From a virus: a stretch of DNA of 21,885 nucleotides. The stretch covers positions 1-21,885 of the IMG/VR virus record IMGVR_UViG_3300027736_000276; one strand, 5' to 3'. Under the pieces are notes generated by a model, which did no database searches, was not told where the DNA came from, and saw only the letters and a list, made by a program, of their open reading frames with translations. Shown here in pieces: positions 9,560 to 21,458 of the stretch (the stretch's first letter is position 1; each line of letters opens with the position of its first letter). A program made the translations under genes and the position numbers.

Positions 9560-10204
9560 TTACTTGGCTACAAGGTCAAGTCTATATCTAGATTTCAGGA
9601 AACACCCTTGGCAGTTGCCATGATGCATCTGAAGGCTTAAATCAAATGACTGCTTGTTCCAGAATGAAAAGATTTCTGGCAGTGTGTTCTTAGCTTCAAA
9701 GATTGGAAAGATTGCAGGGTTGCGCCTAGAGTTTGATTTAACATTAGCCACCCTTCTTGGTTCGTCATACCTAAGGCCAATAGCTTGGTTGCACTTTTTA
9801 AACTCTGCTCCAAGGGTTTTCACATACCTGTCCAAAAGTCTTATCTTCAGCTCCACTGTACAAAACCTAGCAACTGGGTTGGGTAGGTATTGTCTCTCAT
9901 CAATCAGAATTCCAAAGGGTTCACCATTTCTGGAAGCTGTTTCAAAGGTAACTACTTTGTATCTTTCATCATGTATTTTTCCTTGATATTCAATCCAAGT
10001 AATTTTAATGCCCCAGTTAGCTTCACAAGCTTTGATAAATTCGTAAGTTTTTTCATGTTCTAATCCTGTGTTGCAGAAAACTACTTTTATCCCATCTGGA
10101 AGTTTGCCATCATAAGCCTCAATAATTTTTGCGAGCATGTACCCAGAAGTTCTACCACCTGAAAAACTAATGATGGCAGGGTATTCAATTCTGTAAGGGT
10201 TCAT
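9560..10204 (-). CDS. PAPS-reductase-like protein (PP-loop), truncated by an in-frame TAA
   Basis: The 214 residues form the N-terminal part of a phosphoadenosine-phosphosulfate reductase family protein (adenine-nucleotide alpha hydrolase fold). The PP-loop is IISFSGGRTSGYM (residues 11-23). Cys-containing family segments follow: VVFCNTGLEHEKT, NPVARFCTVELKI, and MHHGNCQGCFLKSRYRL near the end. Phage members are common near replication genes; sulfur or nucleotide chemistry, such as DNA modification, is proposed for relatives but not shown here. The frame ends at TAA 9562-9560 in the middle of a helix, and family-like sequence continues in the same frame for 60 codons. ATG 10204 overlaps the upstream stop and has AAAGGA eight bases upstream. 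Confidence 0.85.
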   Translation of the reverse strand: MNPYRIEYPAIISFSGGRTSGYMLAKIIEAYDGKLPDGIKVVFCNTGLEHEKTYEFIKACEANWGIKITWIEYQGKIHDERYKVVTFETASRNGEPFGILIDERQYLPNPVARFCTVELKIRLLDRYVKTLGAEFKKCNQAIGLRYDEPRRVANVKSNSRRNPAIFPIFEAKNTLPEIFSFWNKQSFDLSLQMHHGNCQGCFLKSRYRLDLVAK

Positions 10205-13107: not shown

Positions 13108-13632
13108 CTATTTGATTCTTAAGGAAGTTCCGCGCTGTAGTAATTTGACACCATCAATTTCAGTTCCCATTTCCAAAGCTTTCCTGATGCTGGCGTTATC
13201 TGCTTCAATGGTGATCTTTTGGAATTGAACTGGTAACTGATCTGCTGGCAAGTCCACCTGAAGTGGTTGGACCCCACCATTATTGGCAATTGAAACCTTG
13301 AAGGTTTTGCATTCAAGCTTTTGAATTGATTGAGTTTCAAAAAAGAATTTCAATCTTTCCTTCAAGCTCTTCACTAGATTTTCATTAGTGGTTGCAAGGG
13401 CTTTAATGCGCTTAGATTCTAAAAGCCTAATAGCTGCCCTGGCCTCTATCTCCCTAATCAGCCAGCAGTAGTTTTCCACCTTGGATTCAATGGATCCTTC
13501 AAGCTCTTTCAACAGATCATCAATGGTGGTATCAATTTCCCCTGTCAACTCCCCTGCATCATCCGTCTTAGCTTCTGTTTCAAGCCAAAACTTCATAATG
13601 GCTGAACTTGCGCTTAAATCAAATAGGCTCAT
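13108..13632 (-). CDS. siphovirus Gp157 family protein
   Basis: This 174-residue protein matches the Gp157 family, linked to phage recombination modules. Typical parts are visible in order. First comes an N-terminal acidic helix with GELTGEIDTTIDDLLKELEG. A long coiled coil follows (ENYCWLIREIEARAAIRLLE and KRIKALATTNENLVKSLKER), then KLECKTFKVSIANNGG and LPVQFQKITIEADNASIRKA. It closes with EIDGVKLLQRGTSLRIK, a near-diagnostic ending. Biochemical role is not settled; some relatives are tied to phage resistance phenotypes. It is coupled by an ATGA overlap to the upstream annealing-like gene and followed after 11 bases by the SSB-like gene. Confidence 0.9.
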   Translation of the reverse strand: MSLFDLSASSAIMKFWLETEAKTDDAGELTGEIDTTIDDLLKELEGSIESKVENYCWLIREIEARAAIRLLESKRIKALATTNENLVKSLKERLKFFFETQSIQKLECKTFKVSIANNGGVQPLQVDLPADQLPVQFQKITIEADNASIRKALEMGTEIDGVKLLQRGTSLRIK

Positions 13633-14348
13633 GATCGGCCTCCCATCTTTTTAGCTATCAGCTTTTCAGCATCGATTCTTTGAGCTTCAACCAATTCATC
13701 AACTGAATTAACTTTGTAGTGTTTCAGCATTCCCTTCATGGTGCCAGGGAAAGCATGCTCAACAGCCCTGCAAGCATCTTGAAAAGTTTCCATGGGCTTC
13801 TGCTCATCCACTACCACTGGTGCTGCCAGAGCTGGTAAAGCAATCCTAGTTTGTAGCTGTAACTGGGGTTCCACTTCAGTTTCATCCAACCAACCAAGAC
13901 CGCAGATGCTAAGGGTAACCCTGCGCTTAGCTTTAGTTTCAGCACACATAATCTTGTTAGATCTGGCTTCACCCTGCAAACCCTTCAAACTTACCACCCC
14001 ACAGGATTCATCATTCCTTCCAGTCATGTCCTCTGCTCGAGCTGTTACTGTGTAGATGTCTTCAACCAGTTCCCTAGATAGGATCTGAATAGATACCCCA
14101 TGAAGTTTCCTAAGCTGATCACTGCAAGCTCTAGTGGCATACAACTTCAACTTCCCACCCAAAGGGATAAACTCAAAGGGTTGGGTGTGTGGATTCAGGC
14201 CAAGACTTTCACAGACCCGCATATAGTAGGCACTGCGTTGGTCTTCACTAAGGGTAGATAGATCGCCCTGGATAAGGACCGCATCTGTTTTTACTGCCTC
14301 TAGCTCAACAGGCTTAAGGCTATTTTTTGTCTTCAAAATTGTTGTCAT
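13629..14348 (-). CDS. conserved phage recombination protein, putative RecT/Red-beta-type annealing protein
   Basis: This 239-residue protein carries a conserved phage pattern. YYMRVCESLGLNPHTQPFEF is followed by KLKLYATRACSDQLRKLHGV, a middle GRNDESCGVVSLKGLQGEA, and TKAKRRVTLSICGLGWLDET. These blocks recall the core of RecT/Red-beta single-strand annealing proteins (SLGLNP, a basic KAKRR stretch), but the link is remote and I rate it as inference. A C-terminal helical segment, FQDACRAVEHAFPGTMKGML, may be separate. Gp157 and an SSB-like protein follow at once, as in many annealing modules; no exonuclease partner is visible. ATG 14348 lies 29 bases inside the CsrA gene end. Confidence 0.65.
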   Translation of the reverse strand: MTTILKTKNSLKPVELEAVKTDAVLIQGDLSTLSEDQRSAYYMRVCESLGLNPHTQPFEFIPLGGKLKLYATRACSDQLRKLHGVSIQILSRELVEDIYTVTARAEDMTGRNDESCGVVSLKGLQGEARSNKIMCAETKAKRRVTLSICGLGWLDETEVEPQLQLQTRIALPALAAPVVVDEQKPMETFQDACRAVEHAFPGTMKGMLKHYKVNSVDELVEAQRIDAEKLIAKKMGGRS

Positions 14349-14511
14349 CTAACATTTCCTTCCGAAAGATTTTAAAGTTTCTAGGACCATCAAAACCTAA
14401 TTGATAGGATCCATCCACTGCTCGCTTAAGGGTGACCACCAGAATCTTGTTCGGGTCTGATTCATCCCAGATTAATACCGATTCATTAAACTTTCTTTCT
14501 AGTATCAGCAT
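14320..14511 (-). CDS. csrA: CsrA-family translational regulator, phage-encoded
   Basis: This 63-residue protein matches CsrA/RsmA, the dimeric RNA-binding protein that binds GGA in hairpin loops and blocks or stabilises mRNAs. It starts MLILERKFNESVLIW (canonical MLIL.RK..ES). The strands continue with KILVVTLKRAVDGSYQLGFD and end GPRNFKIFRKEML. Leu4 and Arg50 take the places of the RNA-contact residues Leu4 and Arg44 of E. coli CsrA. The insert WDESDPNK is a little longer than usual, and an acidic tail DDNNFEDKK follows. AAGGAG lies eight bases before ATG 14511. A perfect AGCA-AGGA-TGCT hairpin sits on the start codon, which suggests autoregulation. It lies between regulatory and recombination genes. 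Confidence 0.85.
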   Translation of the reverse strand: MLILERKFNESVLIWDESDPNKILVVTLKRAVDGSYQLGFDGPRNFKIFRKEMLDDNNFEDKK

Positions 14512-14518
14512 CCTTGCT
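14507..14518 (-). promoter_or_regulatory. candidate CsrA site on the csrA start codon
   Basis: On the minus strand AGCA AGGA TGCT forms a 4-bp stem with an AGGA tetraloop, and the ATG begins at the last loop base. A second GGA lies in the ribosome binding site AAGGAG just upstream. Two closely spaced GGA sites around the start are the usual layout of CsrA-repressed mRNAs. Confidence 0.5.
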
Positions 14519-14711
14519 ACTCCTTGTCTGTGGGTTCATCATGTAAGACCGCCATGTATTCTGCGAGAACTTCTAGGTGTCGTTTCACTCTCCCTTCAAT
14601 GTGCTTCTGCTGTCGTTTGGTATTCTCAGGGTGTAACTGGCTAGAGAAGTCCAGAACCTTGGACATCTGATCCAGTAATAAATTTGCCATCTGTTTGGTC
14701 ATCCGTGCCAT
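14517..14711 (-). CDS. small helical hypothetical protein in the regulatory block
   Basis: This 64-residue protein is not recognised. It begins MARMTKQMANLLLDQMSKVL, continues with a basic middle (ENTKRQQKHIEGRVKRHLEV) and ends acidic (HDEPTDKE). It is probably fully helical. The ribosome binding site AGGAGGA lies six bases before ATG 14711, the strongest in the window, so high expression is likely. It is the first gene after the CTGACA operator-like region and lies six bases ahead of csrA. It is probably co-transcribed with csrA and the recombination genes and controlled by the operator upstream. Confidence 0.65.
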   Translation of the reverse strand: MARMTKQMANLLLDQMSKVLDFSSQLHPENTKRQQKHIEGRVKRHLEVLAEYMAVLHDEPTDKE

Positions 14712-14757
14712 GTGTTCCTCCTATAAACTTATCCTATCCGAAATGTTTACAGTTGTC

Positions 14758-14798
14758 TGTCTGACACCTGCCTGACATCTGCCGTCAGAAGTCTGACA
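14758..14798 (-). promoter_or_regulatory. operator-like array of CTGACA/TGTCAG boxes
   Basis: CTGACA occurs on the plus strand at 14761, 14772 and 14793, spacings of 11 and 21 bases, so all three face one side of the helix. Two dyads overlap: TGTC-T-GACA (14758-14766) and GTCAGA-AG-TCTGAC (14784-14797). The region lies between the winged-helix gene and the first gene of the recombination operon. This strongly suggests binding of a phage regulator. Confidence 0.65.
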
Positions 14799-14801
14799 TG
14801 G

Positions 14802-15086
14802 CTATTTGTTTATTTTGTAACCACCCTTAGCTCTGATTAGGATCATGCGCTCGACCATGTTGGACAGGCATGCTCGGAAGGAAGAACTGTTTTCAAGCTG
14901 CATTAGATTTGCGATCTGCTGGGCTGATATGATTTCTTTTTTAACAGACCTAATCACTAGCAGTTCAAGTTCGGTAAAAAACCGCCAGTGGGAAGGTCGT
15001 TTTTTCTTTTTGGAAGGTAGGGCATCCTGCCCTGATTGTTCATCCTGAACTAGCTTAAACTGTTTCGCATCGTCTTGATTATTCAT
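14802..15086 (-). CDS. winged-helix DNA-binding protein, putative phage regulator
   Basis: This 94-residue protein has a disordered, basic N-terminus (residues 1-32, with SKKKKRPSHW) and a C-terminal winged helix. ELELLVIRSVKKEIISAQQI gives helices 1-2, ANLMQLENSSSFRACLSNMV gives the recognition helix region, and ERMILIRAKGGYKINK gives the wing. Such small wHTH proteins act as repressors or excision regulators in phages. The gene lies between integrase and the CTGACA operator, so it is the best candidate to bind that array. Its ribosome binding site is held in the loop of a 6-bp hairpin (15089-15104), pointing to post-transcriptional control, possibly by the phage CsrA. Confidence 0.7.
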   Translation of the reverse strand: MNNQDDAKQFKLVQDEQSGQDALPSKKKKRPSHWRFFTELELLVIRSVKKEIISAQQIANLMQLENSSSFRACLSNMVERMILIRAKGGYKINK

Positions 15087-15088
15087 GG

Positions 15089-15104
15089 TTAGAATCCTTT
15101 CTAA
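15089..15104 (-). promoter_or_regulatory. AGGA-tetraloop hairpin over the ribosome binding site of the winged-helix gene
   Basis: On the minus strand TTAGAA AGGA TTCTAA forms a perfect 6-bp stem whose tetraloop is the Shine-Dalgarno core, with ATG 15086 two bases after the stem end region (AACC spacer). GGA displayed in a short hairpin loop is the classic CsrA target form. Confidence 0.6.
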
Positions 15105-15122: not shown

Positions 15123-16031
15123 TTAGTTTTGAATCTCATGGTTAAGGCCACCAATAAAATCACCACTGGGAATGGGAGTCCCTGCGTAGTGAGAAGTCAT
15201 CCGCTGATCAGTATGACCCAGTAATATTCGTGCAGCTTCTAGACCATGCAATGTCTGCATGTGTCTTGCTCGACCAGATCGAATACCTCTGATAGTCCAT
15301 TCAGGTGGGTGCTTTAGAATTCCATTCTTAATTAATTGTAGTGTACATTTTTTCACTACTCGCTGGTAGGTTAGCCTTGTTAAAAATCCCTCAATATTTT
15401 TTTTACTGGGAAATAGGAATCCTTTTGGGTCTGGTTCGATCTGCTGAACAATCCTAATAGCATCAGCCCCAAGGTATAGCTGGCGATCCTGACCCCTCCA
15501 AGCACCCTTATGGTCAGGTAAAGTCCAGATCCAGAGGTCAGGCTTAACTTTGGAAAAGTTGTTGGAATTGATCTGCACTATCTCGCATGGCCTAGCAGCT
15601 GTCAGCCAGTGCAGTTGGATCAGGTTAGAAAGATATGTAGGTAAATGTGGTAGAAGCTCTGCGATTTGTAACCATGTGACAGATTTAGTCCTGACTGGTG
15701 GTCTACCCTGCCTTGGGTTTGGCATCCACATAGACTTGCAAGCTAGGTAGGTTGCTTGTGAAACCTTGCCCTGCTCCCAGCAAAAACCTACCCACCTGAT
15801 AATCCGGTGCAGGTATTCCCTGATGGTCTTCCTAGCTAAACCCTGAGCAATCATGTGATCTCGGAACTTTCTGAGATGACTGACAGCTAATTTCTTGGGA
15901 TCGGGTAAACTGATACACTCAAGGAACTTAGCCTGAGCGCATCTGTGGGTGGTTAACTCGGTTGAGTTTTGGAGATAGGTCTGGAGATAGTCCAGAAAAT
16001 TCCGAAATGAAATGGTGACTAAGCTTTTCAT
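15123..16031 (-). CDS. int: tyrosine recombinase/integrase
   Basis: This 302-residue enzyme integrates the phage at its att site. The N-terminal SAM-like DNA-binding domain covers residues 1-105 (NFLDYLQTYL, TIREYLHRIIRW). The catalytic domain shows Arg147 in LTAARPCEI, Lys175 in PDHKGAW, Arg251 in TIRGIRSGRARHM, His273 in LLGHTDQRMTSHYAG and nucleophile Tyr282. The usual first His of the HxxR motif is Arg248 (RGIR), a known kind of variation but worth noting. Length is on the short side of normal. ATG 16031 is preceded by a short hairpin with GGA in the loop. A tRNA-Pro 3' fragment 60 bases upstream is the probable attachment site. Confidence 0.93.
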   Translation of the reverse strand: MKSLVTISFRNFLDYLQTYLQNSTELTTHRCAQAKFLECISLPDPKKLAVSHLRKFRDHMIAQGLARKTIREYLHRIIRWVGFCWEQGKVSQATYLACKSMWMPNPRQGRPPVRTKSVTWLQIAELLPHLPTYLSNLIQLHWLTAARPCEIVQINSNNFSKVKPDLWIWTLPDHKGAWRGQDRQLYLGADAIRIVQQIEPDPKGFLFPSKKNIEGFLTRLTYQRVVKKCTLQLIKNGILKHPPEWTIRGIRSGRARHMQTLHGLEAARILLGHTDQRMTSHYAGTPIPSGDFIGGLNHEIQN

Positions 16032-16090
16032 AGGGTTCCATCCTAGTAAGGGAAAAAGTATCCTTATCTAGAACAGAACCGCCATGTGAG

Positions 16091-16137
16091 TCGGGGAGAC
16101 AGGATTCGAACCTGCGACTTCTTGGTCCCAAACCAAG
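16091..16137 (-). other. 3' half of tRNA-Pro(TGG): putative attP core
   Basis: On the minus strand these bases fold as an anticodon arm (CTTGG, loop TTTGGGA, CCAAG; anticodon TGG), a 5-base variable loop and a T-arm with TTCGAAT. The acceptor 3' strand CTCCCCG and discriminator A complete the half. The matching 5' acceptor strand and D-arm are absent; upstream lies the end of a protein gene. A tRNA half beside integrase is the standard attP core that restores the host tRNA after integration. CCA is not encoded. Exact core borders cannot be seen from one sequence. Confidence 0.85.
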
Positions 16138-16156
16138 CGACTTTGTACTAGATATG

Positions 16157-16558
16157 TCAGAAGTCTAGTGGATCATCCTCATCGATGTCAAGGGAAATTC
16201 TTCTAGGTGCCCAATTATTTGATAACACTCCTTTTCTTTTCTTCATGCTTCCATCTGATTTAAAGTAGCAGTCAGGTGTTACCACCGCATCATCTGGATG
16301 ATGAATTTCCCTAAGATCCTCTAGCCTCTGCGCCATCACTGCCATCTTTTCTTCTGACCCTGGTAGAAATTCTGTGGGGTGATCTGGTAACCCAATAGGC
16401 TCCATAAATGCGTTGGTATTTCTTTCCACTCGGTGGCGAGTTTCTATTTTTAATGGGTCAGATTCTGGCCTTTGATAACAGGCTAGGCAGAGGTTTCTAG
16501 ATTTGTGTGGTTTCGTTTGTCCGCATAATAAACATTCAATCAGCCGGACTGTAGGCAT
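16157..16558 (-). CDS. zinc-ribbon hypothetical protein with acidic tail
   Basis: This 133-residue protein has an N-terminal four-Cys site (CLLCGQTK and CLACYQR, residues 9-30). A central LPGSEEKMAVMAQRLEDLRE with HHPDD follows. This 'PG..EKmavma.R...l...HHPDD' pattern is familiar from hypothetical proteins of planctomycetes and their phages, one of the few host clues here. The end DIDEDDPLDF is strongly acidic and resembles SSB-type interaction tips. It lies just before the att site, at the end of the lysis/tail-side gene group. ATG 16558 has an AGGATCC stretch upstream that can pair with a second GGATCC. Function unknown; nucleic-acid or protein binding is likely. Confidence 0.7.
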   Translation of the reverse strand: MPTVRLIECLLCGQTKPHKSRNLCLACYQRPESDPLKIETRHRVERNTNAFMEPIGLPDHPTEFLPGSEEKMAVMAQRLEDLREIHHPDDAVVTPDCYFKSDGSMKKRKGVLSNNWAPRRISLDIDEDDPLDF

Positions 16559-19620: not shown

Positions 19621-20628
19621 TTAGCTCCGAGTGAAGATTGAGACTGTGCCAGAAGATTGGTAATTCGTTGCGTAAACATTTTTACCATCAGCAGAAATAC
19701 AGATTCCATAAGGACTCGTGCCAGTGGCAATGGTGGTGCTTCCAGATAAGGCACCACTAGAAGTATTCCGAGAAAATATTGAGACCGTGTTTCCATTGCT
19801 ATTAGTTACATAGACGCTTGCACCATCCGCAGAGATGCATACATTTCTAGGGTAAGCTCCTGTGGCAATCGTACTGGTTCCAGAGAGTGCCCCTGTACTG
19901 GTGTTTCGTGTAAATATTGATAAAGTAGAGGTGTCGTTATTAACTGCATAGACACTAGCCCCATCAGCAGAAATACAAATTCCACTAGGATTTGTTCCTG
20001 TGGCAATCGTACTGGTTCCAGAGAGTGCGCCTGTGCTTGTGTTTCGTGTAAATATTGAGACAGTGGCAGAACTATAGTTAGTTACATAGACACTAGCCCC
20101 ATCAGCAGAAATGCAGATAGCTCTTGGGCTAGACCCAGTGGCAATGGTACTCGTCCCAGATAATGCACCTGTGCTGGTGTTTCGTGTAAATATTGATACC
20201 GATGTGCCGTAAGCATTTGGAGCATAGACATTTTTTCCATCGGCTGAGATGCACACATCATTAGGGCCAGACCCTGTCGCTATCGTGCTGCTTCCAGAAA
20301 GTGCGCCTGTGCTTGTGTTTCGTGTAAATATGGATAAGGTGTTAGGCGAGTTATTCGCCACATAAACGCTTGCACCATCGGCAGAAATACAAATTCCGTC
20401 AGGATTCGTACCTGTTGCAATTGTACTCGTCCCAGATAATGCCCCTGTGCTGGTGTTGCGTGTAAATATTGAAGTAGTATTGCCAATGTAGTTTGCTGTA
20501 TAAACGCTTGCACCATCCGCAGAAATACAAATAGCTATAGGGTAAGCTCCACTAGCGATAGTGCTAGTGCCAGATAATGCGCCACCCGCAGCCCTACTCA
20601 CACCCATGATTTTTCTATTAATTGGCAT
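19621..20628 (-). CDS. seven-repeat beta-propeller-like tail protein
   Basis: After a short start (MPINRKIMGVSRAA) the 335-residue protein consists of seven 46-residue repeats. A typical unit reads GALSGTSTIATG..P..ICISADGASVY..N...NTLSIFTRNTST, close to the YVTN/lactonase type blade. Seven blades would close a complete propeller. Its place between a repeat fibre and a tail assembly-like gene suggests a receptor-binding tip. Repeats are near identical in DNA too, at a 138-base period, which favours unequal recombination. ATG 20628 overlaps the upstream TAA (TAATG); the longer open frame to 20679 lies inside the upstream gene. No enzyme residues were identified. Confidence 0.85.
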   Translation of the reverse strand: MPINRKIMGVSRAAGGALSGTSTIASGAYPIAICISADGASVYTANYIGNTTSIFTRNTSTGALSGTSTIATGTNPDGICISADGASVYVANNSPNTLSIFTRNTSTGALSGSSTIATGSGPNDVCISADGKNVYAPNAYGTSVSIFTRNTSTGALSGTSTIATGSSPRAICISADGASVYVTNYSSATVSIFTRNTSTGALSGTSTIATGTNPSGICISADGASVYAVNNDTSTLSIFTRNTSTGALSGTSTIATGAYPRNVCISADGASVYVTNSNGNTVSIFSRNTSSGALSGSTTIATGTSPYGICISADGKNVYATNYQSSGTVSIFTRS

Positions 20629-21458
20629 TAGAAGTTTTGGCCTCCTACCATAGCAAACCAAGTTGTACCGCCATCCCAAGTGGTCAACACAAAGATGTCC
20701 ACTTTGTTATTGGTACTTGTCAAAGTTGGTGCCGTACCGCCACTCCACTTTACTGCTGCTGGCCATGTGACAGCCCTAGCGGTTCCATCAGCGGTAAAAG
20801 CTAAAGTAAGTCCGTATGCGGTTCCGGTAGTCGGAATGTTGGAAAAAGTTATGCTCGTAATCGCTGCATTGAGCGAAACATGAAACACATTTCCAGAGGC
20901 ACAATTTAAAGCTAACACACCAGAGGCAATTGCTGGTGCGGTCTTGACTTCATTTAATCCGGTGATGGTTGGGGTGGTAAGTGCTGGACTGGTTGCAAAA
21001 ACAGCAAGCCCGCTGCCTGTTTCATCCGTGAGGCATGAGGCAAGATTTGCACTTGATGGTGTAGCCAAGAAAGTTGCAACACTTGTGCCAAGGCCAGAGA
21101 CACCTGTGGAGATTGGCAAGCCAGTGCATGAAGTTAGCGTTCCGCTGGCAGGTGTGCCGAGTATAGGAGTAACTAGCGTAGGGCTAGTGGCGAAAACATT
21201 TGCCCCTGTGCCAGTTTCATCTGTCAATGCTGCTGCTAAATTTGCTGATGTTGGTGTAGCCAAAAAAGTCGCAACACTTGTACCAAGTCCAGAAACTCCT
21301 GTCGAGATTGGCAAGCCAGTGCAAGAGGTTAGCGTTCCAGATGTTGGTGTGCCAAGTATAGGAGTGACGAGCGTAGGTGAAGTCAGCGAAAGCGTATCAC
21401 CGCTTTGCAGTTCCTGCACTGTGGTCGTGTTCACTACTAGTGGATATCGTGCTGCCAT
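20628..21458 (-). CDS. tail fibre/tip protein with 65-residue repeats
   Basis: This 276-residue protein has two full 65-residue repeats (residues 27-91 and 92-156). Each contains SPTLVTPILGTP.SGTLTSC, TGLPISTGVSGLGTSVATFL and ATP.SANLA..LTDETG.G..VFAT; a partial third copy follows. This repeat is very widespread in phage tail fibres. The C-terminal 100 residues form a beta-rich domain (VFHVSLNAAITSITFSNIPT and AVTWPAAVKWSGGTAPTLTS) found at the ends of fibres and probably trimerising or receptor-facing. AAGGAAA lies close upstream of ATG 21458. It is followed at once by the propeller gene in TAATG coupling. Confidence 0.9.
   Translation of the reverse strand: MAARYPLVVNTTTVQELQSGDTLSLTSPTLVTPILGTPTSGTLTSCTGLPISTGVSGLGTSVATFLATPTSANLAAALTDETGTGANVFATSPTLVTPILGTPASGTLTSCTGLPISTGVSGLGTSVATFLATPSSANLASCLTDETGSGLAVFATSPALTTPTITGLNEVKTAPAIASGVLALNCASGNVFHVSLNAAITSITFSNIPTTGTAYGLTLAFTADGTARAVTWPAAVKWSGGTAPTLTSTNNKVDIFVLTTWDGGTTWFAMVGGQNF
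20991..21380 (-). repeat. two 195-bp tandem repeats in the tail-fibre gene
   Basis: Units at 21186-21380 and 20991-21185 encode the 65-residue fibre repeat and are highly similar in DNA (for example GTATAGGAGT at both, 195 bases apart). Such repeats allow length change of the fibre by recombination. Confidence 0.85.

Follow-up and report, generated by a model that had tools for sequence, protein, structure and literature searches.

A CsrA homologue in a probable temperate phage control region and candidate GGA hairpins at its own start and at a neighboring regulator

The window analyzed here (i.e., the whole stretch of 21,885 bases of a viral record) encodes an HK97-type capsid protein with a prohead protease, a terminase, and a tyrosine integrase. 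Based on these genes and a partial tRNA-Pro beside the integrase, the record is assigned as part of a temperate tailed phage. On the minus strand, the integrase gene is followed by the gene of a 94-aa protein, a 64-aa ORF (ORF64), csrA, and the gene of a 239-aa protein (13629-14348), whose start overlaps the end of csrA (Table 1). ORF64 lies directly upstream of csrA with 5 nt between its stop and the csrA start, and a family profile search with ORF64 returned nothing above the cut-off. In this family of temperate phages, the locus most likely serves as the control region, made up of the integrase gene, the gene of a small and probably winged-helix protein, a probable operator, and an operon formed by ORF64, csrA, and the gene at 13629-14348.

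Table 1. Positions of the genes, repeats, and hairpins of the control region in the window
Feature	Position	Strand	Basis
csrA, 63 aa, divergent family member with an extended loop (WDESDPNKI)	14320..14511	-	PF02599 match
GGA hairpin on the csrA start, AGCA-AGGA-TGCT	14507..14518	-	sequence, folding
ORF64, 64 aa, no assigned family	14517..14711	-	ORF list; conserved with csrA
csrA Shine-Dalgarno AAGGAG, contains first GGA (-12)	14520..14525	-	invariant in relatives covering the site
Three TGTCARRC direct repeats, probable operator of the csrA operon	14759..14798	-	phasing, conservation
94-aa probable winged-helix DNA-binding protein	14802..15086	-	weak family matches
GGA hairpin over the winged-helix ribosome site, TTAGAA-AGGA-TTCTAA	15089..15104	-	sequence, conservation
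Tyrosine integrase	15123..16031	-	phrog_1, E 9.7e-21
18-bp hairpin pairing the integrase ribosome site, includes ATGGA	16034..16080	-	folding, conservation
Partial tRNA-Pro, probable attachment site	16099..16158	-	Rfam tRNA 27.4 bits, under gathering score 29

A complete tRNA was looked for in the window and none was found. Near-identical integrases of different relatives are adjoined by tRNA-Pro fragments of two kinds, which run in opposite directions (anticodons read as TGG and CGG) and were noted in the window and just upstream of the integrase in contigs L077, L079, L083, and L086-L089; an attachment-site switch is possible. Two attempts at a host assignment were discarded, as a scan of genome contigs gave a spurious 17-residue match in Acidithiobacillus only and the terminase relatives were generic and pointed to no host. 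Elsewhere in the window, a PAPS reductase-domain protein is encoded at 9560-10204 (PF01507), and a PAPS reductase is likewise present in the Bcep22-like csrA phage JC1 (PMC9144972). A 352-aa ORF at 19621-20679 is built of repeated SADGASVYVAN / FTRNTSTGALSGTSTIATG units.

The csrA product matches Pfam PF02599 with 33.6 bits (cut-off of 27). In an alignment to solved CsrA chains, its Leu4 aligns with Leu4 and its Arg50 with Arg44, which bears out the initial annotation of a 63-residue CsrA homologue with Leu4 and the C-terminal Arg. The phage protein resembles the CsrA/RsmA family in its length, its N-terminal MLILERK strand, its terminal FRKEM segment, and the two residues just named, both of which are invariant in the family alignment. 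In contrast, it carries six extra residues in a loop, a glutamate at position 5 (invariant in the phage CsrA family alignment, Thr in E. coli CsrA), and a score of 35.4 bits against the TIGR00202 csrA equivalog cut-off of 70.1 bits. As this score is far under the cut-off, the protein is classified by sequence as a divergent member of the CsrA family and not as an equivalog. Glu5 might weaken the stem contacts of the phage protein. The structure model of the monomer (mean pLDDT of 57.8) was too weak for judging the swapped-strand dimer fold. Close csrA relatives occur in about 25 IMG/VR viral contigs with identities of 76-100%. A tblastn search with this csrA against GenBank phages gave no match, a search for plasmid relatives gave just two weak ones, and E. 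coli CsrA matches 85 GenBank phage records.

The 94-aa protein shows a weak AbiEi N-terminal match, and a homologue with 34% identity in contig L054 matches HTH_11 with a score under the cut-off, while the structure model of the 94-aa protein (pLDDT of 63.8) was too weak for a fold search. The winged-helix label given to this protein in the initial annotation can thus be kept as probable, albeit weakly supported. C runs of ~10-20 are found just upstream of the winged-helix gene in L069, L045, L071, and L072, and also at the starts of L033, L039, and L054, where they precede the control gene or share its frame; such a run may be a phase-variable tract or mark a break in the assembly. Three TGTCARRC repeats separate the 94-aa gene from ORF64-csrA and begin at 14798, 14777, and 14766, so that their starts are 21 and 11 bp apart. 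A comparable cluster was found in none of 300 random windows, and the repeats are present in every examined csrA contig that has the 94-aa gene. In L033, L039, and L054, the csrA operon is combined with another upstream module, which encodes 94-aa protein homologues; behind them, TGTCA-type repeats again occur with an 11-bp phase. The repeats are therefore regarded as the probable operator of the csrA operon, to which the 94-aa protein may bind, and possibly they are excisionase-type sites.

At the winged-helix gene, the hairpin TTAGAA-AGGA-TTCTAA covers the ribosome site exactly as it had been described. Its AAGGA is the Shine-Dalgarno sequence, the A(N)GGA motif is found in the hairpin loop overlapping the ribosome site, and this GGA is the only one of the leader. 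With a predicted energy of -2.4 kcal/mol (z of -0.5) the hairpin folds no better than shuffles, and an equally long stem arises by chance with a P of 0.0042 when GGA is fixed and the other bases are shuffled. No known RNA family was found at the leaders. The hairpin and spacer (18 nt, TTAGAAAGGATTCTAACC) show no variation at any of the 18 sites in 14 contigs with this first leader type (window included), compared with variation at 7/18 other sites of the intergenic region and at 59/94 third codon positions of the winged-helix gene. The hypergeometric P for this invariance relative to the flanking sites is ~0.004 (0.012 without the Shine-Dalgarno sequence), which is optimistic, as variable sites are linked. 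Four contigs carry a second leader type (TGGAAGGATTCCA), in which a GGA at the unchanged position (-11) is enclosed by a different stem of 4-5 bp, and pair counting shows that two of the six pairs of the first-type register are broken. Covariation had been suggested as a check on this stem: the GGA hairpin is re-formed in the second type without the pairing register being kept, and we therefore read it as a re-formed hairpin and not as clean covariation. The three csrA contigs with a distant homologue of the winged-helix gene show no comparable hairpin, and their gene starts are ambiguous.

At the csrA start, the hairpin AGCA-AGGA-TGCT was likewise recovered just as described; it is extended by a U.G pair to UAGCA/UGCUG, and the final A of its loop is the A of the start codon. 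Its folding (-5.0 kcal/mol, z of -1.3) is unremarkable compared with shuffles, and an equally long stem is obtained by chance with a P of 0.08 (GGA positions fixed, other bases shuffled). The Shine-Dalgarno sequence of csrA overlaps the end of ORF64. GGA motifs at -12 and -2, 10 nt apart, are present in all relatives, and the leader AAGGAGTAGCAAGGATGC is invariant in all relatives covering it, although it is largely coding or Shine-Dalgarno sequence. In about half of the relatives, the protein begins with M-P-L-V, which changes TGCT to TGCC and removes the fourth (outer A-T) pair, while an alternative stem with one mismatch reaches a similar stability of -4.0 kcal/mol. Conservation of the csrA leader in relatives thus covers both GGA motifs and the inner three pairs of the stem, and the outer pair in part. 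Sites separated by 10-63 nt can be bridged by a CsrA dimer (PMC7652899), and the spacing in the csrA leader lies at the bottom of this range. Most other phage csrA leaders, though not all, have GGA at the ribosome site, and no hairpin common to them was found. Taken together, the winged-helix leader gains real support as a candidate CsrA target, and the csrA site appears weaker.

A third site does not stand. A TAGG/CCTA hairpin with ATGGA in its loop (16045-16031) had been proposed ahead of the integrase gene, but the same bases fold into a stronger stem in which ATGGA is paired. When upstream sequence is included, an 18-bp stem of -22.4 kcal/mol (z of -6.0) is predicted, and the P of a GGA-loop stem by chance is 0.65 (GGA-fixed shuffling). 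Every one of the 10 distinct leaders forms the inner 10 pairs (three of these via one-sided changes, with G.U pairs present), the loop varies in sequence and length, and the outer stem is not the same across relatives. As its GGA is paired and not exposed in a loop, this hairpin was rejected as a CsrA site; more likely, the stem would restrain integrase translation by itself or mark DNA sites of the integrase.

In hcnA, glgC, and RsmZ, CsrA targets hairpins whose ANGGA loop covers the ribosome site or lies close to it. The phage leaders are similar in that they offer an AAGGAU loop and a short stem over the Shine-Dalgarno sequence as well as two GGA motifs at csrA; they differ in that the phage hairpins are predictions and N is missing from the 5-nt loop in the second leader type. 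The high-affinity form bound by CsrA/RsmE is an ANGGAX hexaloop placed directly on a stem, and binding drops 10- to 1000-fold when the loop has no N (PMC4005645). With the inner A-U pair opened, either phage hairpin presents an AAGGAU hexaloop on a stem, and such loops are predicted to be compatible with CsrA sites. The second leader type can form a 5-nt AGGAU loop, which corresponds to the weaker form.

In the proposed circuit, the phage CsrA would bind at two leaders, namely to the AAGGAU loop over the winged-helix ribosome site and to the two GGA motifs that mark the ribosome site and the start codon of csrA. Ribosomes would be kept off both leaders, so that CsrA would limit itself and the neighboring regulator. 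The winged-helix protein, in turn, would bind the TGTCARRC repeats and set the transcription of the csrA operon. We assign a rough probability of 40% to the reading in which CsrA restrains its own translation and that of the winged-helix protein and the latter controls csrA transcription. That the two proteins form a switch, in which CsrA represses translation of the DNA-binding protein and this protein controls csrA via the phased TGTCARRC repeats, is considered doubtful. We infer RNA binding, repression, operator binding, the direction of control, and an effect on lysis and lysogeny from the observed genes, motifs, conservation, and placement over ribosome sites. For the repression of csrA itself and of the regulator, as put forward in the initial annotation, the conserved winged-helix leader speaks in favor and the partly kept csrA stem against, and the repression is best called putative.

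The main rival, which we consider nearly as likely as the CsrA circuit, holds that the needs of translation explain the conservation of these ordinary, strong ribosome sites, that the hairpins are incidental, and that the phage CsrA is aimed at host messages. AAGGA is simply also a Shine-Dalgarno sequence, the count of GGA-loop stems is not raised over the 38 leaders of the phage (GGA-fixed shuffling), and two other genes (9359 and 10204) have nearly the same ribosome site, AAAGGATTCAACC-ATG, but no hairpin. Host messages as targets find a precedent in RsmQ of plasmid pQBR103, a CsrA homologue that is likewise carried by a mobile element and takes global control of the host (PMC9928087); RsmQ acts on host messages, whereas the candidate targets in the phage are genes of the element itself. 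However, the 5' arm TTAGA and the spacer are non-coding and lie outside the Shine-Dalgarno sequence, yet they are invariant, and a hairpin surrounds the corresponding GGA in the second leader type, too. Moreover, the comparison leaders do vary: because the AAAGGATTCAACC-ATG sites without a hairpin differ among relatives, the ribosome-site formula alone does not explain the invariance of the winged-helix leader.

It is unlikely that the hairpins are instead read by the host CsrA, which would tie the phage to host physiology and leave the phage copy as a decoy or booster. The loop has the general CsrA/RsmE form that any CsrA could read (PMC4005645), but every relative covering the region has its own csrA (relatives with the winged-helix gene and without csrA, sought as a natural control, were not found), and the host csrA is putative. 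Even less probable is a role of TTAGAAAGGATTCTAA as a DNA operator for self-repression by the winged-helix protein. It is a perfect 6-bp inverted repeat just before the winged-helix gene; however, a search for further copies of the TTAGAA palindrome found one per phage only in the fetched stretches, and in L015 and L028, where the DNA-binding domain is almost the same, the palindrome has another spacing. The TGTCARRC repeats make a stronger operator candidate, and the probable binding of the 94-aa protein to them argues against the palindrome as its operator. Finally, structures acting alone as weak temperature- or coupling-dependent translation gates would suit an AU-rich stem of only -2.4 kcal/mol but are very improbable, as both hairpins leave GGA unpaired and thus expose rather than hide the ribosome site.

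The presence of csrA on phages is already known, as it was counted in 30/2517 phages (~1% of sequenced phages) in one survey (PMC7366521) and is described for JC1 (PMC9144972). The csrA reported here shares with the GenBank phage genes (Pseudomonas, Vibrio, Xanthomonas; JC1) that it is carried by a phage, but differs from them in its position close to an integrase gene, the gene of a small DNA-binding protein, and a probable operator. The accessible portions of both reports name no phage gene as a target, and within the literature available to us no published report of what phage csrA genes regulate was found. The region described here places two concrete candidate phage targets beside csrA, together with a candidate operator through which the loop would be closed. 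Should binding be borne out, the region would offer a worked example of a phage CsrA acting on the phage's own genes and not just on those of the host. If the CsrA circuit as a whole is true, it would represent a phage life-cycle circuit with a post-transcriptional arm built from a captured CsrA.
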